Part shown: positions 24,815 through 34,493 of the stretch, piece by piece
Position numbering within the stretch: position 1 is the stretch's first letter
Layout: the number at the start of each line of letters is the position of its first letter
Notes under the pieces: model-generated
Database searches by the model: none
Told to the model about the DNA's origin: nothing
The model's input: only the letters and a program-made list of their open reading frames with translations
From: Chitinophaga sp. MM2321
GTDB taxonomy: Bacteria; Bacteroidota; Bacteroidia; Chitinophagales; Chitinophagaceae
Reading direction: 5' to 3'
Length of the DNA stretch: 64,000 nt
NCBI RefSeq assembly: GCF_964033635.1
Contig: NZ_OZ035533.1
Coordinates: 2,170,001-2,234,000, forward strand
Program-made: the position numbers and the translations under genes

Positions 24815-27196
24815 ATGTTCAGAAACTACCTCCGGATTGCTGTAAGAACCCTACTGAAGAATAAAGTCTTTTCAGTAATAAATATTGCAGGCTTGTCTGC
24901 AGGAATGGCGGTAGCATTACTGATAGGTTTATGGACATGGGATGAATGGTCTTTTGGTAAGGTACTCCCGCATTATGACCGCATGGCGCAGGTGATGCAA
25001 AGTAAAACTTTCAGCGGTGAAGTCGCTACCTTTTCCGCTTTACCCGCTGTTTTACGCGGGGCCATGCAATCAGCTTATGGCAGCGACTTTAAACACATCG
25101 TTCTCGTCTCCTGGCCAAATGCGCATGTACTGGCGGCTGGCGACAAAAAGATATCACAGACAGGTTCGTATATGAATACGGATGGGCCGGAAATGTTTTC
25201 CCTGAAAATGCTGTATGGTACGCGCAACAGCCTTGCTGATCCACACACTATCTTACTCTCAGCCAGCACTGCCCGTGCCTTGTTTGGCGACATAGATCCA
25301 ACAAACAAGATCCTGAAAATGGATAATCAGTCAGTGGTAAAGGTAACGGGTGTGTATGAAGACTTCGCCGCCAATAGCCTGTTCAGGGAATTTACCTTCA
25401 TCGCGCCCTGGGAACTATATGGCATAGCAGAACCCTGGGTAAAGAAAACGGAAGATCTCTGGGATAACAATTCCTTCATGATGTATGTACAGCTGGCAGA
25501 TCATGCTGACATGGCGACGACAGCTGCGAAGATCAGGAATATCAAAATGGACCATGTTGCAGCAGAAGATCGAACTTTTAATCCTGTGATCCAGTTACAG
25601 CCGTTGAGTCGCATACACCTGTACGGCGAATTTAATAACGGTGTAAGTACGGGCGGACTTATACGTTATGTTTGGCTGTTTGCCTTAATCGGCATTTTTG
25701 TGCTGCTATTGGCTTGTATCAATTTTATGAACCTGAGTACCGCCCGTTCAGAAAAAAGGGCCCAGGAGGTGGGCATCCGCAAGGCTATAGGTTCTATGCG
25801 TATACAACTCATCATACAGTTTCTGGGCGAATCTATGTTAATGGTGCTGATGGCATTTGTAACCGCCTTACTGCTGGTCCAGTTATCTCTTCCATTTTTC
25901 AACAGGATCGTGGATAAAGAGATGTCTATCCTCTGGACCAACGGAATTTTCTGGCTGATATGCCTGGGTTTGTGTTTGGTAACAGGATTTATAGCAGGCA
26001 GTTATCCGGCATTTTACCTGTCGTCCTTTCGGCCGGTGAAGATACTCAAAGGTACCTTCAGTGTAGGGCGCAACGCAGCTATCCCACGCAAGGCGCTGAT
26101 CGTATTACAGTTTAGTGTATCGGTGATACTGATCATTGGTACCATCGTAGTTTTCAGGCAGATACAGTTTGCACAGGACCGGCCGCTGGGATATAATAGC
26201 AACGGCCTTATTTCAATAGAACAGGTTACGCCGGATCTGCATAACCACTTTGCCGCCATACGTAACGATCTGCTAAAAGAAGGCGCCATAACAGAAATGG
26301 CAGAAACAGGTAGCACCACCACCCTGGTGAAAGTTACCAGCGGCGGTTTTGAATGGCAAGGCAAGCAACCTGGAATGGCCGATGATTTTGCCCTGATAGA
26401 TGTAAGCCCCGGGTTTGGAAAAACAGTAGGCATGCAAATCAGTTCCGGCAGGGATTTTTCAGCAGCTTTCCCTGCTGACAGTACTGCTATGATATTAAAC
26501 GAGGCCGCCGTGAAGTATATGGGACTGAAGGATCCGGTAGGACAGCTTATCCGCTGGGGTAAAACCTATACCGTGATTGGCGTATCGCGGGATATGGTTA
26601 TGAATTCACCGTATGAACAGGCTAAGCCCACTATTTTCTACAGCAGGAAAGAAGGAGGGAACTATATTATGATGAAGTTGAATCCTGCCATAAGCACCAG
26701 GGTGGCGCTGGATAAAATTGCTGCCGTGTGTAAAGCCTATTCACCCGCTGTGCCATTTGATTATAGATTTACAGATCAGGATTATCAGAAAAAATTTAAT
26801 GAAGAGAGAAAAACCGGTAAACTGGCTACCATCTTTTCCCTGCTTGCCATTTTTATCAGTTGCCTGGGCTTGTTTGGTATGGCCTCCTTCATGACTGAAC
26901 AGCGAACAAAAGAAATAGGTATCCGGAAAATACTGGGCGCATCCGCCATCAACCTGTGGGTCATGCTATCAAAAGATTTTTTATTGCTGGTTTCCATTGC
27001 TATATTGCTGGGGTTTCCGCTGGCTTATTATATCATGTACCAGTGGTTATCCGGATACTATTATCACGTAGAGATCTCCTGGTGGATATTTATAGCTACC
27101 GGAGGGGGAGCTTTGCTGATCACTATGCTGACGGTAAGTTTACAGTCAGTGAAAACAGCCCTGGCCAACCCGGTAAAAAGTTTAAGATCCGAGTAG
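24815..27196 (+). CDS. FtsX/MacB-type ABC transporter permease
   Basis: Inner-membrane permease of the MacB/FtsX superfamily, 793 aa. The first membrane helix (about 20-42, VFSVINIAGLSAGMAVALLIGLW) is followed by a periplasmic MacB_PCD domain, then membrane helices near 290, 340 and 385 with the FtsX signature FMNLSTARSEKRAQEVGIRKAIGS. The second half repeats this architecture and ends TEQRTKEIGIRKILGAS...ALANPVKSLRSE. This double-unit form without a linked ATPase gene is common in Bacteroidota. The partner ATPase and substrate are unknown. Another member lies at 47.4 kb. The AT-rich island begins just after it. Confidence 0.9.
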   Translation: MFRNYLRIAVRTLLKNKVFSVINIAGLSAGMAVALLIGLWTWDEWSFGKVLPHYDRMAQVMQSKTFSGEVATFSALPAVLRGAMQSAYGSDFKHIVLVSWPNAHVLAAGDKKISQTGSYMNTDGPEMFSLKMLYGTRNSLADPHTILLSASTARALFGDIDPTNKILKMDNQSVVKVTGVYEDFAANSLFREFTFIAPWELYGIAEPWVKKTEDLWDNNSFMMYVQLADHADMATTAAKIRNIKMDHVAAEDRTFNPVIQLQPLSRIHLYGEFNNGVSTGGLIRYVWLFALIGIFVLLLACINFMNLSTARSEKRAQEVGIRKAIGSMRIQLIIQFLGESMLMVLMAFVTALLLVQLSLPFFNRIVDKEMSILWTNGIFWLICLGLCLVTGFIAGSYPAFYLSSFRPVKILKGTFSVGRNAAIPRKALIVLQFSVSVILIIGTIVVFRQIQFAQDRPLGYNSNGLISIEQVTPDLHNHFAAIRNDLLKEGAITEMAETGSTTTLVKVTSGGFEWQGKQPGMADDFALIDVSPGFGKTVGMQISSGRDFSAAFPADSTAMILNEAAVKYMGLKDPVGQLIRWGKTYTVIGVSRDMVMNSPYEQAKPTIFYSRKEGGNYIMMKLNPAISTRVALDKIAAVCKAYSPAVPFDYRFTDQDYQKKFNEERKTGKLATIFSLLAIFISCLGLFGMASFMTEQRTKEIGIRKILGASAINLWVMLSKDFLLLVSIAILLGFPLAYYIMYQWLSGYYYHVEISWWIFIATGGGALLITMLTVSLQSVKTALANPVKSLRSE

Positions 27197-27460
27197 GGCG
27201 TTTTTTTAAATGGGCCATGTTGGAAATATTTTTGGATTTTGAAATTTGGAGATCTACTTAATTGTTATATATTAACTTTGCCATTGTTTATGTATTATGC
27301 TGTTTTTATATTTATTGTTATGATGTGTTTTTCATGACAAAAACTTATATTACGCCTACTTTCCAAATCATTTAATTGTTTTAACATCTTATCTTAGTGG
27401 ATGTGAACTAATTTATATAATCCTCATTGAGTAGCAAGTCACATCAATATTTGTTATGTC
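27197..27460 (+). promoter_or_regulatory. AT-rich upstream region of the Shango-like operon
   Basis: 264 bp without a gene. It contains a perfect TAnnTTTG box (TAACTTTG, 27273-27280) about 180 bp before the first gene. A TTTG at 27245-27248 is 24 nt upstream of it, longer than the usual 19-21 nt, so the promoter call is tentative. The sharp drop in GC relative to the preceding permease gene starts here. No attachment-site repeat or tRNA was recognised. Confidence 0.4.
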
Positions 27461-29686
27461 ATGAAAATTTTTTTTATCCTTATACGTTGGATCATTGGTA
27501 TTTTCCTGTGTTTAACTGCCTTAGGAGGTTTTTTAAGTGGAGAAGTAGGAACTGCGTTTTTTATTCTAGTTTTTGGTTTGGTGTTTTTGCCTCCTATATC
27601 AAAGGCCTTATTCTCCAAATTGCCTCAGAATAAGACTGGCGGAAGTAGCCAACCTCCAACGACAGGAGAAAAAATGGATGGTACCTCATCAGTTGAAGCT
27701 TCCGTATCGCTGCCATTAAATTTACCCCCCGAGCTACAAAAGGAGCATATAAGCATAAGGAATTATTCAACCCCAAAAGCCGATAATGCAAAAGATAAAC
27801 TGATTCAAATAGATCCATCTAATCTGGCGGCCCTTCCCTCAATCACTATGATCAAGGAAAGCCAGCAAGAAAAGCCAAGTATAATGGGGGATACAATGTG
27901 CCAAACAGATAATTCAATAATTGATATAACTGGAGAATCTGTTCAAATAAAGCATCTCAATCCCCTACCAGACCCAATCAATAAAACTATTATTGTTCCA
28001 TATTGGAGCCATCGGTACATATATTCCTATGACGATATAAATACTGCCACTAAAGAACAGTTTAACTTCTATCAGAATTTTAAAGAGCAGTTTTTGAAGG
28101 GAACCTATATCGACATACAAGAGAATAATAATTATGCTTTCATTCTGCTATTTGATCTCCTAAAGCAATTCGATAGAGATACTGATTTTCACGGTTTGGA
28201 GAGTGGATTGAATATTTTGGGAAGTCACTATCCTAAAACGCTACCCTATACACGATCCTTTCTCCTACAGAAAATGACCGCAATTGGAGATAATAATAAT
28301 GTGAATAGGGTCCATCAGGAAATGATGGAAGGAAACCAGCAGGAGAATAATTATAATTATTGGGGGCTTGGTTCAAAGCATAAGAAAACACTCAATCTGG
28401 ATAAGGCATCAGAAAAATTGCTGAATAGAATTTGGTATCAAGGCAATAACTTTTATGATTTAGAATTTTGCCAATTGGAGATAATTAAGCTATTTCTGGC
28501 AGTGCTTAAAGGATTACAACTAAGATATAACTCAGAACAACAAACAGTAGAACAACAATTTCAGATCGTTGCTGATGTAATAGCCAGGAAACAATACAAG
28601 TATAGGCTGAACAGTAATAACTACAAATATTGCATTCAATCTACAATAAATGAGCTATATATTTTCATTTTTAAACATTGCGAGAATGCCATCAGAGAGC
28701 TTTATGGACACAAAAGAAAACTCTCTATCGATAATTATAGCATTTTGGAAGTAAACTTGCAGTTAGAAGAAAGAATACTTTCTAAGATAAGGGAAATAAT
28801 TCCTAAAGAAATACTGCATACAAAAATACCTGACGAGCAAACCGAAATAGAATTAAACACGAAAAATACTACTCGCTGGAAATCGAAATTAAGTGAATTG
28901 GAAGGAATGCTTGGAAGTAAAAACAGTGTATGGTTTCTGGAAGAAGTGGCATGCCTGGGCAAACTAAATAAGAATAACCCTTCTATCGAAAATATATTCT
29001 TTGAAGCTTCAAAGATCCTTTCAAAAAGAGATCGTGCCGTTTCTCTTATTTTATATACTCATTACATATTTCACGATCTGAACTCCAAGACTTTTGATAA
29101 TAAGCCAATTGCTAAAACAATTCAAAGGAATTTATTTGATAATGATGAGCAAGCATTAGAATTTGAATCTATCATTAATAACCTCATTAAAACAAAGAAT
29201 CTCAAAGTTGCAATTGATAATGCCTCTAGGCTCTATTTACCCAAACGGAAAAGAATTCAATTAGATATTGGTACGATCAAAGATGTAAATCGTAAATATA
29301 AAGGTACAGTTGAGTTGTTAAATGAATTACTGCAAGATGAAAGCGCAATAGATGAATCACTTGCAGATAGCTATTCCATAGAGCCGATTGAATTTCCTTC
29401 GTCCAATCACACAGTGCATAGCGCCGAAGATGAAATAGTGCCTGTTCATAAAGTTGAGCTGAATGCAGCACAATCAGGTTTGTTGCAAATATTTTTGAAG
29501 AATAGTTGGTCTGTTGCGCAAGTTGATATAAACACTTATGCTAAGTCAATCGGAATGTTCTCCAACCAATTAATAGAGAGTGTCAATGATGTATGTTTTG
29601 AATTAATTGATGATTTATTGATTGAGGAAGATGACGATTTTTATGTTATTAATGAAAATTACTATCAAAATATATTCTCAAAATGA
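27461..29686 (+). CDS. sngA: TerB-N/TerB-C domain protein, SngA-like component of a Shango defence system
   Basis: 741 aa. The N-terminus has two membrane helices (about 3-23 and 28-48). A Ser/Thr/Asn-rich linker runs to about residue 175. A TerB-N-like domain begins at about 178 (PYWSHRYIYSYDDI, then FYQNFKEQFLKGTYIDIQENNNYAFILLFDLL). A TerB-C-like domain occupies about 600-741 (VELNAAQSGLLQIFLKNSW... ELIDDLLIEEDDDFYVINENYY). Known Shango systems pair a TerB-domain protein with an ATPase and a helicase and protect against phages; that order is seen here. The stop codon overlaps the next start (ATGA). Low GC supports horizontal transfer. The role of the TerB protein is not established, and the membrane hairpin suggests an inner-membrane location. 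Confidence 0.75.
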   Translation: MKIFFILIRWIIGIFLCLTALGGFLSGEVGTAFFILVFGLVFLPPISKALFSKLPQNKTGGSSQPPTTGEKMDGTSSVEASVSLPLNLPPELQKEHISIRNYSTPKADNAKDKLIQIDPSNLAALPSITMIKESQQEKPSIMGDTMCQTDNSIIDITGESVQIKHLNPLPDPINKTIIVPYWSHRYIYSYDDINTATKEQFNFYQNFKEQFLKGTYIDIQENNNYAFILLFDLLKQFDRDTDFHGLESGLNILGSHYPKTLPYTRSFLLQKMTAIGDNNNVNRVHQEMMEGNQQENNYNYWGLGSKHKKTLNLDKASEKLLNRIWYQGNNFYDLEFCQLEIIKLFLAVLKGLQLRYNSEQQTVEQQFQIVADVIARKQYKYRLNSNNYKYCIQSTINELYIFIFKHCENAIRELYGHKRKLSIDNYSILEVNLQLEERILSKIREIIPKEILHTKIPDEQTEIELNTKNTTRWKSKLSELEGMLGSKNSVWFLEEVACLGKLNKNNPSIENIFFEASKILSKRDRAVSLILYTHYIFHDLNSKTFDNKPIAKTIQRNLFDNDEQALEFESIINNLIKTKNLKVAIDNASRLYLPKRKRIQLDIGTIKDVNRKYKGTVELLNELLQDESAIDESLADSYSIEPIEFPSSNHTVHSAEDEIVPVHKVELNAAQSGLLQIFLKNSWSVAQVDINTYAKSIGMFSNQLIESVNDVCFELIDDLLIEEDDDFYVINENYYQNIFSK

Positions 29687-30996
29687 TTGCAAATGTAAAG
29701 CCCAAGGAAGCTACAGCTATTATAAATTCTTTAATTGCAGGCGTAGTGCCAAAAATAGGAATTCAACATATCACTGTTGGCAGATCTGAAGAAACTAATG
29801 CCTTTATTATGGCTTTAGAAGATGTTAAGAATGGACATAGTATGGTCAAATTCTGGATAGGAGACTTTGGTTCGGGGAAATCATTTATGCTTCACTTGAT
29901 GAATACGGTGGCACTTCGGCAAAAATTTGTTGTAACCAATGCTGACTTTACACCAGATAACCGGTTGTATGCGAATGATGGGAAGGCGGTGTCATTATAT
30001 ACCTCTTTAATGGACAATATCGCTATTCAAACAAAACCTGAAGGGGGTGCATTGTCAACACTTATGGAGAAATGGATTGAACAGATTATTTCGAAAACAG
30101 CATTGGAAAATAATATTCTTCTGACGGAAATTCGCAAGAAGGAACAATTTCCGCTTATCCAAGCTAATATTTTGAAAACCATAAATGAAATTACTGAGGT
30201 TGGTGGTTTTGATTTTGGAATGGTTGTAATGAAATACTATGAAGGATACGTTAAGGATGATGAGGCTTTAAGGAAAAATGCTTTAAAATGGTTGAAAGGA
30301 GAATACAGAACGAAAACAGAGGCAAAGCACGATTTAGGTGTTAGGGAAATTATTAATGATATAAATTATTATGACATGCTGAAAAACTTCTGCAAATTGT
30401 TTGTCAGCATGGGATATAGTGGCTTTCTCATTAATCTTGATGAAGTAATTAACTTATACAAAATATCGACTTCCGTAATGCGTGAGAAGAATTACGAAAA
30501 GATACTGGCTATCTATAATGATTGCTTTCAAGGTAAAGTATCACACCTTTTCTTCAATTTCGCCGGTACAAAAGAAACGTTAGAAAATGAGCGACGAGGC
30601 TTATTTAGCTACGATGCCTTAAAAACAAGACTGGAGACGAATAAATTTGAAACAGCAGAGATTAGAGATTTTGCGCAGCCGGTAATAAGAATATTACCAC
30701 TGGATCATAATGAAATATTTGTTTTATTGAAGAAGCTGAAAGCTGTTTTTGATTTCAATTATTCTTCTAGTATTGATATTACTGATGTTGATATACAAAC
30801 CTTCATGGAGGAAATGTTTAATAAACCAGGTGCGCATGAATTCTTAACACCCAGGGAGGTAATTAGGGACTTCTTGAATATATTAAACATCCTTCGGCAA
30901 AATCCTTCCTTGGAGAAAAGTAAGTTATTTGGTGAAATGGAAGTGGTAGACGAAAGGCCTGATATACTTTCCTTGGATGAAATAGATGAGTTGTAA
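29683..30996 (+). CDS. sngB: P-loop ATPase of DUF2791/BREX type, SngB-like component
   Basis: 437 aa cytoplasmic ATPase. Walker A is GDFGSGKS at residues 60-67 (Lys66). The Walker B-like strand GFLINLDE places the acidic pair at about 253-254. The N-terminal KEATAIINSLIAGVVPKIGIQHITVGRSEE segment is typical of DUF2791 proteins (BrxC/BrxD-like ATP-binding proteins), which bind the target name in BREX and Shango. An internal insert, from about 110 to 230, is Lys/Glu rich. The start overlaps sngA by 4 bp and the stop shares one base with the start of the helicase, so translation is coupled. A role as motor or sensor with the helicase is inferred. Confidence 0.8.
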   Translation: MIANVKPKEATAIINSLIAGVVPKIGIQHITVGRSEETNAFIMALEDVKNGHSMVKFWIGDFGSGKSFMLHLMNTVALRQKFVVTNADFTPDNRLYANDGKAVSLYTSLMDNIAIQTKPEGGALSTLMEKWIEQIISKTALENNILLTEIRKKEQFPLIQANILKTINEITEVGGFDFGMVVMKYYEGYVKDDEALRKNALKWLKGEYRTKTEAKHDLGVREIINDINYYDMLKNFCKLFVSMGYSGFLINLDEVINLYKISTSVMREKNYEKILAIYNDCFQGKVSHLFFNFAGTKETLENERRGLFSYDALKTRLETNKFETAEIRDFAQPVIRILPLDHNEIFVLLKKLKAVFDFNYSSSIDITDVDIQTFMEEMFNKPGAHEFLTPREVIRDFLNILNILRQNPSLEKSKLFGEMEVVDERPDILSLDEIDEL

Positions 30997-33125
30997 TGCC
31001 TATCAACTTGCTCTCTGAGCCAATCCGCAGGTATATTAGAGATAAACGCTGGGAAGAACTCCGACCAATTCAGGCAGCGGCCATCAAGAAAATTATTTCT
31101 ACTGACCAGAATTTTATTCTAGCATCAAGAACAGCCTCTGGTAAAACAGAGGCTGCATTTCTCCCTATTCTTTCTAAATTAAATTTTAGAGAGCATGGGG
31201 TGCAGGTTCTATATATTTCACCCCTAATAGCACTAATTAATGATCAATTTTACCGGGTAGAGGAACTGTGTAAACACCTCGATATCTCCGTTACAAAGTG
31301 GCACGGGGAAGCTAGTAAAGCAGCAAAAGAGGCTGTGGTAAAGCAACCCAATGGCATTGTATTGATAACGCCTGAATCCATTGAGGCGATGTTTGTAAAT
31401 AAACCATTTAATATCTTACATCTTTTCTCCAATTTGAGATATGTTGTTATTGATGAGATACATTCTTTTATTGGTACGGAGAGAGGGATACAACTCAAAT
31501 CCTTACTGGCAAGGATACAATCAACCATACCTGTTCCATTCAGTATAATTGGTTTATCTGCTACTATTGGTGACTATCGGGAAGCAAAACGATTTACAGG
31601 TAATGAAGCAAATACAATAGTCCTGTTGGACAGAACGAAAAAGGAAATAAACGCAAAGTTCAAATACTTTGAAGCCGAAGGAGAGGAGTTACCGTTGGCT
31701 TTACTGAAAGATTTATACGTAGAAACGAAGGATGACAAAGTTCTTATATTTCCCAATAATAGAGGGCGTGCGGAGGAAATAGCGGTTAAACTCAGGAAGA
31801 TTTCGGATAAAGTGGGAGGGCATTCCAATTATTTCTCACATCACTCATCTGTTGATAAAGAAGTAAGAGAGCATGTTGAGTATTTTGCGAAAAATAATGA
31901 AAGACGGAGTTTTTGTATTGCATGCACTTCCACATTGGAGCTTGGAATTGATATCGGTGGTGTGGATGAAGTAGTGCAGATTGATGCGGCGAATAGTATC
32001 GCTTCTCTTATTCAAAGAGTAGGTAGAAGTGGGCGAAAAAATGGTATGCCAAGCAATCTGTTTCTGTATGCCACTAATCAATGGAGCCTTTTGCAATCTA
32101 TCGCTTGTTGGGAACTCTATCAGGAAGAATTCATAGAACCACCGGAGATAACTGAGAAACCTTATGATATTTTGGTACATCAAATATTATCCATCCTCAA
32201 AGGGGGAAATGGTATTACGCATGAACGGTTATTGAGAGAACTATCAACAAACTTTGCTTTTTCTCAGATTGATACCATCGAGAAGGAAGAAGTGATAAGC
32301 CACCTACTATCCATAGATTTTATAGAAAAGACAGGACTTGAATTGATTATTGGAGTAGAAGGAGAAAAGATAGTTAATAATAAAGATTTTTATAGCGTTT
32401 TTATTTCGGAGCCTAATTTTAAAGTCCTACATGCAGGTAATAGAATAGGTGAAATTCCATTCTCTCCACAAATAAAGGAGGACGAGAATATCTTACTCGC
32501 GGCAAAAATTTGGAAGATAAAATTTGTAGATTTTAAAGCAAAGAAAATTGAAGTTGTGAGAGCCGCAGATGGGCGAAAACCCGTATTCTTTAGTGGACAT
32601 CTCACCGTGCATACCAAGATAAGAGAAAAGATGCTGGAAATAATTTACTCCACTAAACAATTTTCCTACTTGGATGAGGCGTGTCAGCAACAGATATTAG
32701 AGATTCGACAAGAATTTATGAGCTGTAAGATTAGGAATGTTGAGGGAGAAAGACCTTTGCTGGTGACCGATAAAAAAGTTAAATTTTATTCATTTACAGG
32801 TACAAAAACTAATCAATCGCTTGGATTACTATTTACCGTAAATGGTATTATAAATAATTTGGATGTATATGTTAGCTCATTTGAAATGTCAATTTCTGTG
32901 GAAGAATTACAAAAGAAGTGGCTCAATCTACTTTTATCATTGAATAATATTGATGAACATATTGAATCCTTACTGAAGCAGAATCCTAGTTTGATCGACT
33001 TTTCCAAGTGGGCTATTTATTTGCCTTTAAAGTTACAGATCGGGTTACTAAAACAGCAATATTATGATTTTAATGCAGCAGCGCAGCTGGTAAATTTTAT
33101 TAAGCTTGTACCAAATAGTGAATAA
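30996..33125 (+). CDS. sngC: Lhr-like DEAD/DEAH-box helicase, SngC-like component
   Basis: 709 aa superfamily 2 helicase. Motif Q-like RPIQAAAIKKI is near residue 25. Walker A ASRTASGKT is at 43-51. Motif II is DEIH at 153-156, a DExH box. SAT occurs in IIGLSATIGD. The second RecA lobe carries CTSTLELGIDIGGVDEVVQ and motif VI QRVGRSGR at 340-347. The family resemblance is to Lhr-type ATP-dependent helicases. The C-terminal 350 residues lack a motif I recognise and may bind nucleic acid or the partner proteins. It completes the three-gene Shango order (TerB, ATPase, helicase). Codon use is AT-rich like its two neighbours and unlike the flanking genes. Confidence 0.85.
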   Translation: MPINLLSEPIRRYIRDKRWEELRPIQAAAIKKIISTDQNFILASRTASGKTEAAFLPILSKLNFREHGVQVLYISPLIALINDQFYRVEELCKHLDISVTKWHGEASKAAKEAVVKQPNGIVLITPESIEAMFVNKPFNILHLFSNLRYVVIDEIHSFIGTERGIQLKSLLARIQSTIPVPFSIIGLSATIGDYREAKRFTGNEANTIVLLDRTKKEINAKFKYFEAEGEELPLALLKDLYVETKDDKVLIFPNNRGRAEEIAVKLRKISDKVGGHSNYFSHHSSVDKEVREHVEYFAKNNERRSFCIACTSTLELGIDIGGVDEVVQIDAANSIASLIQRVGRSGRKNGMPSNLFLYATNQWSLLQSIACWELYQEEFIEPPEITEKPYDILVHQILSILKGGNGITHERLLRELSTNFAFSQIDTIEKEEVISHLLSIDFIEKTGLELIIGVEGEKIVNNKDFYSVFISEPNFKVLHAGNRIGEIPFSPQIKEDENILLAAKIWKIKFVDFKAKKIEVVRAADGRKPVFFSGHLTVHTKIREKMLEIIYSTKQFSYLDEACQQQILEIRQEFMSCKIRNVEGERPLLVTDKKVKFYSFTGTKTNQSLGLLFTVNGIINNLDVYVSSFEMSISVEELQKKWLNLLLSLNNIDEHIESLLKQNPSLIDFSKWAIYLPLKLQIGLLKQQYYDFNAAAQLVNFIKLVPNSE

Positions 33126-33305: not shown

Positions 33306-34493
33306 CTACCTTTGCTGAAAGTCACCAACCATTTCATTTTTCACGGACAACTTCTTTCTTCTACGTTCCAGTATACGTTGTCTGAGCCGCAGGAAAGGCG
33401 CTTCTACCGTTTTATTTAATAAAAGGGCACCCAGGATGCCGGCTGTAAGACAGAGCAGGAACATCAGGTTGCCTTTGGGCGCAATACCGGCTTTCTCCAG
33501 CAGGGGATGTACCAGGTGTATCACTCCTTTATGCGATAGATATAATACAAAAGATAACCTGGCAATGAGTGCCGTGACGCGGCTATTGTACCGGTACAAC
33601 ACGCAGGACGGACTTACAGCAGCCATGACCAGCAAGCCATAACCGGCTGCTACCAACGGATACCCGGATATGGAAGCGTGGAAACTTTGTTGTGCCTTAC
33701 ACAAAAACCAGGCGCCGGTTAAAACGATAAGGCCAGCTAACAAAATGATATTCCCATGTTTTGTCAGCCGTTCTTTTACAGCGGGCCTGAAGGCAAATAG
33801 CGCAGCAATGGCAACACCCGCCAGTAATCCATCGAGCCGGTTGTAGGTGGGGTAGTACATATACCGGTACCAGGTAATACCAAAGTTGTTTTGTCCTGCT
33901 TCGGGCGCAATTAAGAAATGCCAGCTGTATAGCCTTACAACAAAGCCAAAGAGCAACACTGCCAACAATATCAGTCCTCCTTTTTTCATGGTTTTGAAAT
34001 GTAACAGCAGGATCAGTACAAGCGGGAAGAGCAAATAAAAATGTTCTTCTACACATAATGACCAGACATGCGAAAAAGTACCGAAGTTTTTAATATCGAA
34101 GTTGAAATTTTGTGTAAACGTTAAAAATTTCCATAGTGGCGGCAATGCTTCTCTTTCCCGGAAAGCAGGTATTAAAAAATAGATAGCCAATAGCAGGAGG
34201 TAAGCCGGAATGATCCTGAAAAAACGTTTAATAAAAAATTCCGGCAGGGATATTTCTTTTCCGGCGGCTATGTTTACAAACAACTGGGAGGAGATCAGGT
34301 AGCCACTCAATACAAAGAAAAGGTCTACGCCCGTCCATCCGAAGCCCATTATATTGTCCAGCCAATGCGGGTGCGGAAACATCCGGTAATGATAAAACAA
34401 GACCATGATAATAGCCAGTGCTCTCAAATGATCCAGCCCGTAAAGCTTTTTATTTTGTGCTGTTGTAGTAACTGTTGCCGTTGGATATGTCAT
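33306..34493 (-). CDS. Acyltransferase 3 family (OafA/YrhL-like) membrane protein
   Basis: 395 aa polytopic membrane protein that would transfer acyl groups, typically acetyl, to cell-envelope carbohydrates. The N-terminal GLDHLRALAIIMVLFYHYRMFPHPHW and GWTGVDLFFVLSGYLISSQLF blocks are the family hallmark, with the His-rich first helix. About ten hydrophobic helices follow. SHVWSLCVEEHFYLLFPLVLILL is a further signature. The C-terminus is basic (LRQRILERRRKK). The acceptor is unknown. It is transcribed towards the AT-rich island, and its base composition resembles the rest of the chromosome. Confidence 0.9.
   Translation of the reverse strand: MTYPTATVTTTAQNKKLYGLDHLRALAIIMVLFYHYRMFPHPHWLDNIMGFGWTGVDLFFVLSGYLISSQLFVNIAAGKEISLPEFFIKRFFRIIPAYLLLLAIYFLIPAFREREALPPLWKFLTFTQNFNFDIKNFGTFSHVWSLCVEEHFYLLFPLVLILLLHFKTMKKGGLILLAVLLFGFVVRLYSWHFLIAPEAGQNNFGITWYRYMYYPTYNRLDGLLAGVAIAALFAFRPAVKERLTKHGNIILLAGLIVLTGAWFLCKAQQSFHASISGYPLVAAGYGLLVMAAVSPSCVLYRYNSRVTALIARLSFVLYLSHKGVIHLVHPLLEKAGIAPKGNLMFLLCLTAGILGALLLNKTVEAPFLRLRQRILERRRKKLSVKNEMVGDFQQR

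Follow-up and report, generated by a model that had tools for sequence, protein, structure and literature searches.

Shango, the closest described relative of the locus reported here, comprises in Pseudomonas aeruginosa PA14 three genes in the order TerB-like protein, ATPase and DEAD/DEAH box helicase, and it protected P. aeruginosa PAO1 against several phages in a study whose consulted sections report activity in E. coli as already known (PMC10250203). In the corresponding excerpts of a published helicase tree, SngC, BrxHI, DruE and DpdJ stand together as a possible clade of defence helicases (PMC12278908), and the mechanism of Shango is listed as unknown in the consulted part of a 2026 review (PMC12926258). 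The window, a 64,000-nucleotide stretch of Chitinophaga sp. MM2321 (contig NZ_OZ035533.1, 2170001-2234000), likewise carries genes for a TerB-like protein, an ATPase and a helicase, which are co-directional and adjacent and match the PADLOC models of that system.

According to the ORF calls, sngA, sngB and sngC form a single overlapping operon (window 27461-33125, all on the plus strand; Table 1), in which sngA and sngB share the 4 bp ATGA and sngB and sngC share 1 bp, the A of TAATG, in agreement with the tight overlaps described in the first-pass annotation. The gene order SngA, SngB, SngC is that of Shango and the best PADLOC model for each of the three proteins is the Shango one, the match of SngA covering positions 101-523 of a 528-position profile, so that the Shango identity proposed earlier was borne out by the HMM search. 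The proposed P-loop ATPase was confirmed by Pfam PF10923 together with a Walker A motif in which every position but S64 is invariant among seven aligned sequences, the window's among them, and the proposed DExH helicase of Lhr type by the Pfam DEAD and Helicase_C domains and the DEIH of motif II. The operon is complete and without visible damage, and its ATPase and helicase motifs are intact. Searches with Pfam and NCBIfam-type models found no nuclease domain in the three products. A 14-nt inverted repeat (93%; 27329-27342 and 27454-27467, 111 nt apart), the second arm of which lies over the sngA start codon, could be a chance occurrence.

Table 1. Features of the Shango operon and its flanks in the window
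Feature	Position	Strand	Description and evidence
Left flank, MacB/FtsX-type ABC permease	24815..27196	+	Pfam; also borders the Shango-free site in two relatives
sngA	27461..29686	+	741 aa, predicted membrane-anchored, C-terminal TerB_C; PADLOC SngA 7.5e-39; Pfam TerB_C 9e-24
SngA predicted membrane helix 1 (residues 2-26)	27464..27538	+	hydropathy peak 2.55 at 3-21; AF2 helix 2-26
SngA predicted membrane helix 2 (residues 29-42)	27545..27586	+	hydropathy peak 2.13 at 29-47; AF2 helix 29-42
SngA predicted disordered linker (residues 52-174)	27614..27982	+	pLDDT <50 at 52-156 and 162-174
SngA predicted all-helical core (residues 190-594)	28028..29242	+	AF2 model; Pfam; fold searches with whole model
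SngA TerB_C domain (residues 593-738)	29237..29674	+	Pfam 9e-24
sngB	29683..30996	+	437 aa, BrxC/BrxD-type P-loop ATPase; PADLOC SngB 2e-162; Pfam PF10923 2.2e-141
SngB Walker A GDFGSGKS (residues 60-67)	29860..29883	+	sequence reading
sngC	30996..33125	+	709 aa, SF2 DExH helicase, BrxHI/Lhr-like group; PADLOC SngC 3.4e-208; Pfam DEAD, Helicase_C
SngC motif I GKT	31140..31148	+	sequence reading
SngC motif II DEIH	31452..31463	+	sequence reading
SngC motif VI QRVGRSGR	32013..32036	+	sequence reading
Right flank, Acyl_transf_3 acyltransferase	33306..34493	-	Pfam; also borders the Shango-free site in two relatives

Because SngB belongs to the Pfam family BrxC_BrxD and matches BrxD, and SngC matches BrxHI models, the locus might be read as a reduced or unusual BREX, whose BrxD and BrxHI are a related ATPase and SF2 helicase. 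However, the Shango models score much higher for both window proteins (539 bits for PADLOC SngB versus 136 for BrxD; 692 bits for SngC versus 430 for BrxHI), and the 137.9 bits of SngB against the NCBIfam BrxD model lie below its cut-off of 350. Furthermore, the only PglZ match of the genome (G000:C1:5452407-5452982, in a 523-aa frame) is 3.2 Mb from the window and falls in a protein that we take to be PorX-like, and no BREX gene was recognised among the neighbouring ORFs, judged by eye from their translations and, for three neighbours, by Pfam. A BREX locus is on these grounds barely credible. We also disfavour, as very improbable, a housekeeping operon for DNA repair or with an Lhr-type helicase that has no part in defence: SngC does match the model of the ligase-associated DEXH helicase (TIGR04121), but its 257.6 bits are far below the cut-off of 850 and compare with 692 for PADLOC SngC, and both the patchy distribution in the genus and the foreign GC content described below speak against such a role. 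A match of the three proteins to an unrelated housekeeping system, the possibility that the first-pass annotation had set against its own proposal, was looked for and not obtained.

The impression of a compositionally foreign block holds because the GC content of the operon is 35.4% (0.354), compared with a mean of 45.7% (0.457) across 931 sliding stretches of the window, whose sd is 0.009 and whose lowest value is 0.432; the stretches are 5665 bp long, were taken at a step of 50 and so are not independent, and none overlaps the island. The hand counts from which this impression arose were exact (18 G/C in 28441-28500, 33 in 26041-26100), and the 264 bp ahead of the sngA start have a GC content of 26%. 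With respect to the borders, the earlier description stood as far as tRNAs and repeats are concerned: no tRNA was found at the locus, Rfam gave no match at gathering scores, and no direct repeat pair frames the block among 20 of 25 repeat families.

The expectation of an empty site between the FtsX permease and acyltransferase genes of relatives proved half right. Two genomes of the genus (G002 and G004) have the same neighbours and lack Shango, with 57% and 56% identity to the window for the permease, each the best match of its genome, and 74% and 78% for the acyltransferase. Between them, however, lies msrA (163 codons, MsrA by Pfam; L067 7478-7969 and L068 9142-9633). Because these two relatives hold msrA in place of Shango, the slot is variable and not a clean empty site, and the difference may reflect replacement or independent insertion. 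Close msrA genes occur in 39 of 79 genus genomes, flanked by the FtsX permease and acyltransferase only in G002 and G004 among the matches listed; the sole MsrA of the window genome is encoded elsewhere and is 46% identical. In another genome (G021), a two-gene relative (L070 1938-4799 and 4810-6984) lies one gene beyond the far side of the corresponding acyltransferase. Its first gene encodes a 953-aa fusion of a SAP-domain protein with a BrxD-type ATPase, its second a BrxHI-type helicase.

SngA matches were obtained in 19 of the 79 genus genomes, one of them (G067) over 95 residues only; in all of the remaining 18, SngB and the start of SngC adjoin SngA, the SngB match being in two pieces in G068. 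Presence of the same genes in all relatives with normal composition, which had been raised as an argument against a foreign origin, is not what was found, with 18 of 79 genomes positive and a GC content of 35.4%. The same adjacency of SngA and SngB with the start of SngC holds in most of 80 loci from genome contigs, and 690 plasmid records have a SngB- or BrxD-like match. Based on the foreign GC content, this patchiness, the Shango-free sites with the same flanks in G002 and G004 and the plasmid records, the operon was probably acquired horizontally. Close spacing of SngB and SngC is usual, and gaps of about 2.0 kb (L094 7556-9591) and 0.6 kb (L166 8311-8879) were seen; the first of these loci is labelled Limnohabitans and carries a Shango of the Bacteroidota type, possibly through a binning error.

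SngA had been described as a TerB-N/TerB-C protein that starts with two unusual membrane helices and a long Ser/Thr/Asn linker, a description that survived in part. TerB_C is present, its last part (from about residue 666) having a winged-helix-like fold in the AF2 model, whereas TerB_N is not supported: Pfam at E up to 1 reported TerB_C alone, and the similarity of the window SngA to the TerB_N profile is weak and non-significant (E 0.069, probability 0.8%, 82 columns). Both membrane helices are predicted by hydropathy and modelled with high pLDDT, and they would form a hairpin head without an extracytoplasmic domain. The linker is predicted to be disordered, and its enrichment in Ser, Thr and Asn is only mild (26.7% in residues 52-167 versus 20.4% in the whole protein). 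For the helical core, Pfam and fold searches with the whole AF2 model gave no significant Pfam or PDB match.

Across the family, SngA divides into two lineages. Pfam (E up to 0.001) detected TerB_N or TerB in none of 60 SngA proteins of the window's lineage, whereas in the other lineage it detected TerB_N in 22 of 22 and TerB in 18 of 22. By profile comparison, the window SngA has only the TerB_C stretch in common with this other lineage, a comparison outside which the PA14 protein itself stands, and the window SngB is approximately 36-38% identical to SngB of proteobacterial plasmids. The window operon is, from its sequence, best read as the Shango of a divergent Bacteroidota lineage. Because the lineages differ in the core of SngA, results obtained with the Shango of Pseudomonas or E. 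coli need not transfer to Bacteroidota. The sources on Shango, in the portions examined, do not separate the two, nor do they give TerB_N or TerB as a defining domain of the system.

The membrane helices are evidently not unusual for SngA, in which a predicted anchor is widespread. Defined as a 19-residue hydropathy peak >1.6 near the N-terminus, a hydrophobic segment was scored in 77 of 124 SngA proteins (48/76 genome loci, 4/13 genus copies and 25/35 others), or 73 of 119 when only distinct sequences are counted. The first 150 residues of SngB (0/66) and SngC (0/68) from the genome loci never passed this test; a stretch of the SngA core passed it in 16 of 124, and 2 of 68 SngC passed once the test was relaxed to 15 residues, so some of the membrane calls may be false. 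Of the 120 database proteins nearest to the window SngA (its own entry included), 118 have an N-terminal segment, and among 120 relatives of a Pseudoalteromonas SngA 106 pass with a 15-residue and 63 with a 19-residue window. No segment was scored in 47 of the 124, to which most of the Chryseobacterium rows and 9 of 13 genus copies belong (13 of the 18 were examined), so not every Shango can depend on the anchor. Mapped onto the SngB tree, the segment is clustered yet repeatedly changed: it needs 17 changes, of which starred branches force at least 12, and each of 500 shuffles needed more.

The heads themselves are varied. Hairpins are predicted in the window SngA, in G063 and G022 and in several Hymenobacter proteins, other SngA having a single TM; TM2 heads occur in L099, L118 and P0009 (3/60 by Pfam in the window's lineage) and a DUF805 head in 1 of 22 SngA of the other lineage. 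SH3_3 precedes the TM in L093, L105, L112, L113, L117, L122, L126 and L139, that is at a minimum of 8 of 80 loci (at least 8, since 40 of the 80 SngA were scanned with Pfam, ten of these chosen for their heads). A hydrophobic segment follows the SH3 domain in 8/8 of these and also precedes it in 6/8, the start of L113 being signal-like by eye and L105 being cut at its start. PG_binding_1 lies before a TM in SngA of a Mesorhizobium plasmid. Because an SH3 or peptidoglycan-binding domain is followed by a TM, part of some SngA proteins should lie outside the cytoplasm. A predicted anchor in most of the SngA examined, with heads that vary and are in some cases extracytoplasmic, leads to a testable idea of where Shango acts and what it may sense.

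We propose, with somewhat better than even confidence, that the operon encodes a membrane-tethered, horizontally acquired Bacteroidota Shango in which SngA serves as sensor or scaffold and SngB and SngC attack phage DNA. The gene set, the intact motifs, the predicted head, the foreign GC content and the patchy distribution stand behind this reading; counted against it are the 47 of 124 SngA without a segment, the possible miscalls, a window head that is a hairpin only, three genes in which Pfam and NCBIfam-type models recognise no nuclease to destroy the DNA, and the lack of a BRCT companion (see below) at the window and at 12 genus loci. The anti-phage activity of the window copy, the topology of its SngA, the formation of a complex, the sequence of steps and sensing at the entry site are what we infer from the whole, as follows. 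The N-terminal hairpin would hold SngA in the inner membrane, and a flexible linker of approximately 120 residues would carry the helical core and the winged-helix-like TerB_C into the cytoplasm, where SngA may recruit the P-loop ATPase SngB. Close to where phage DNA enters the cell, SngB in turn would load the SF2 helicase SngC onto this DNA or drive it there. In Zorya and Kiwa, an inner-membrane component is coupled to a cytoplasmic component that acts on DNA. A comparable layout may apply to SngA with SngB and SngC, a likeness of layout for which no sequence relation is claimed.

The same operon could instead use SngA as the killer, with its helices assembling after SngB and SngC have sensed the phage and damaging the inner membrane in an abortive infection. 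Such a function, which we regard as unlikely, is consistent with 77 of 124 SngA being cytoplasmic proteins but for an N-terminal hairpin or single TM and with the failure of Pfam and NCBIfam-type models to find a nuclease domain in the operon, but the segment is missing in the other 47, and unrelated heads (TM2, DUF805, SH3-TM and PG-binding-TM) accord less well with a single pore than with an anchor or an input module. To the same degree unlikely, in our estimation, is a purely cytoplasmic targeting of DNA in which the membrane segment is incidental or merely fixes location. The 47 SngA without a segment, its changes on the SngB tree (17, at least 12 forced) and the similarity of SngB and SngC to BrxD and BrxHI favour this alternative, whereas the frequency of the segment in both deep lineages (21/29 and 56/95 rows) argues against it.

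At 22 of 76 genome loci, the gene for a protein of approximately 300 codons, all of one cluster, overlaps sngA or ends upstream within 112 bp of its start, and a BRCT domain was found in all seven members scanned with Pfam. An ORF matching a BRCT profile is present at 31 of 80 Shango loci (flanks of at most 7 kb), in many cases immediately ahead of sngA (e.g. L089 4146-5048, L140 4606-5496, L112 3674-4591), at 0 of 12 genus loci, at 1 of 16 plasmid loci (from Hymenobacter, with a Pfam BRCT match no better than E 0.067) and at 0 of 37 control loci without Shango (293 kb), counts that ignore kinship, draw on a profile into which 13 of the 31 positives and the plasmid case went, and set positives mainly from Flavobacterium, Chryseobacterium and Hymenobacter against controls all from the window's genus. 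Some companions contain a DEDDh exonuclease (L112 by Pfam; L112, L117 and L118 by PADLOC), and in others the repeats resemble TerB on visual inspection, for which the best Pfam TerB match is not significant (E 0.026). BRCT companions of Bacteroidota Shango match the PADLOC defence candidate PDC-S48, several only weakly; this candidate has no counterpart at the window locus, where a BRCT companion is absent, and the window genome gives only a 50-residue match (E 0.009).

The companions at 31 of 80 loci and the grouping of SngC with BrxHI, DruE and DpdJ in the consulted part of the helicase tree (PMC12278908) link Shango to DNA. In the tethered system proposed here, phage replication might be blocked directly, or the DNA might be passed to nucleases of the host or of the companions, the latter helping where they are present. 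More tentatively, and as something we hold possible at well short of even chances, Shango may be a trans-envelope sensor in which SngA is a receptor with exchanged heads (hairpin, TM2, DUF805, SH3 or peptidoglycan-binding) that relays perturbation of the envelope, e.g. by DNA injection, to a DNA-attacking ATPase-helicase, with a second, Bacteroidota lineage whose SngA lacks TerB and often has a BRCT companion of the TerB-like-BRCT or DEDDh exonuclease-BRCT type. Three features appear to be new, namely the division of Shango into two lineages that differ in the SngA core, the widespread and changeable membrane head, and the BRCT companion; among the Shango papers listed, no title or opening of an abstract states any of the three, which is weak evidence of absence. 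Other genes adjoin Shango elsewhere: zorA of Zorya on a Polymorphobacter plasmid (L203 42-2006), and an exonuclease gene matching PADLOC RTasSbcB next to the Mesorhizobium Shango with the peptidoglycan-binding SngA (L171 8894-10300).
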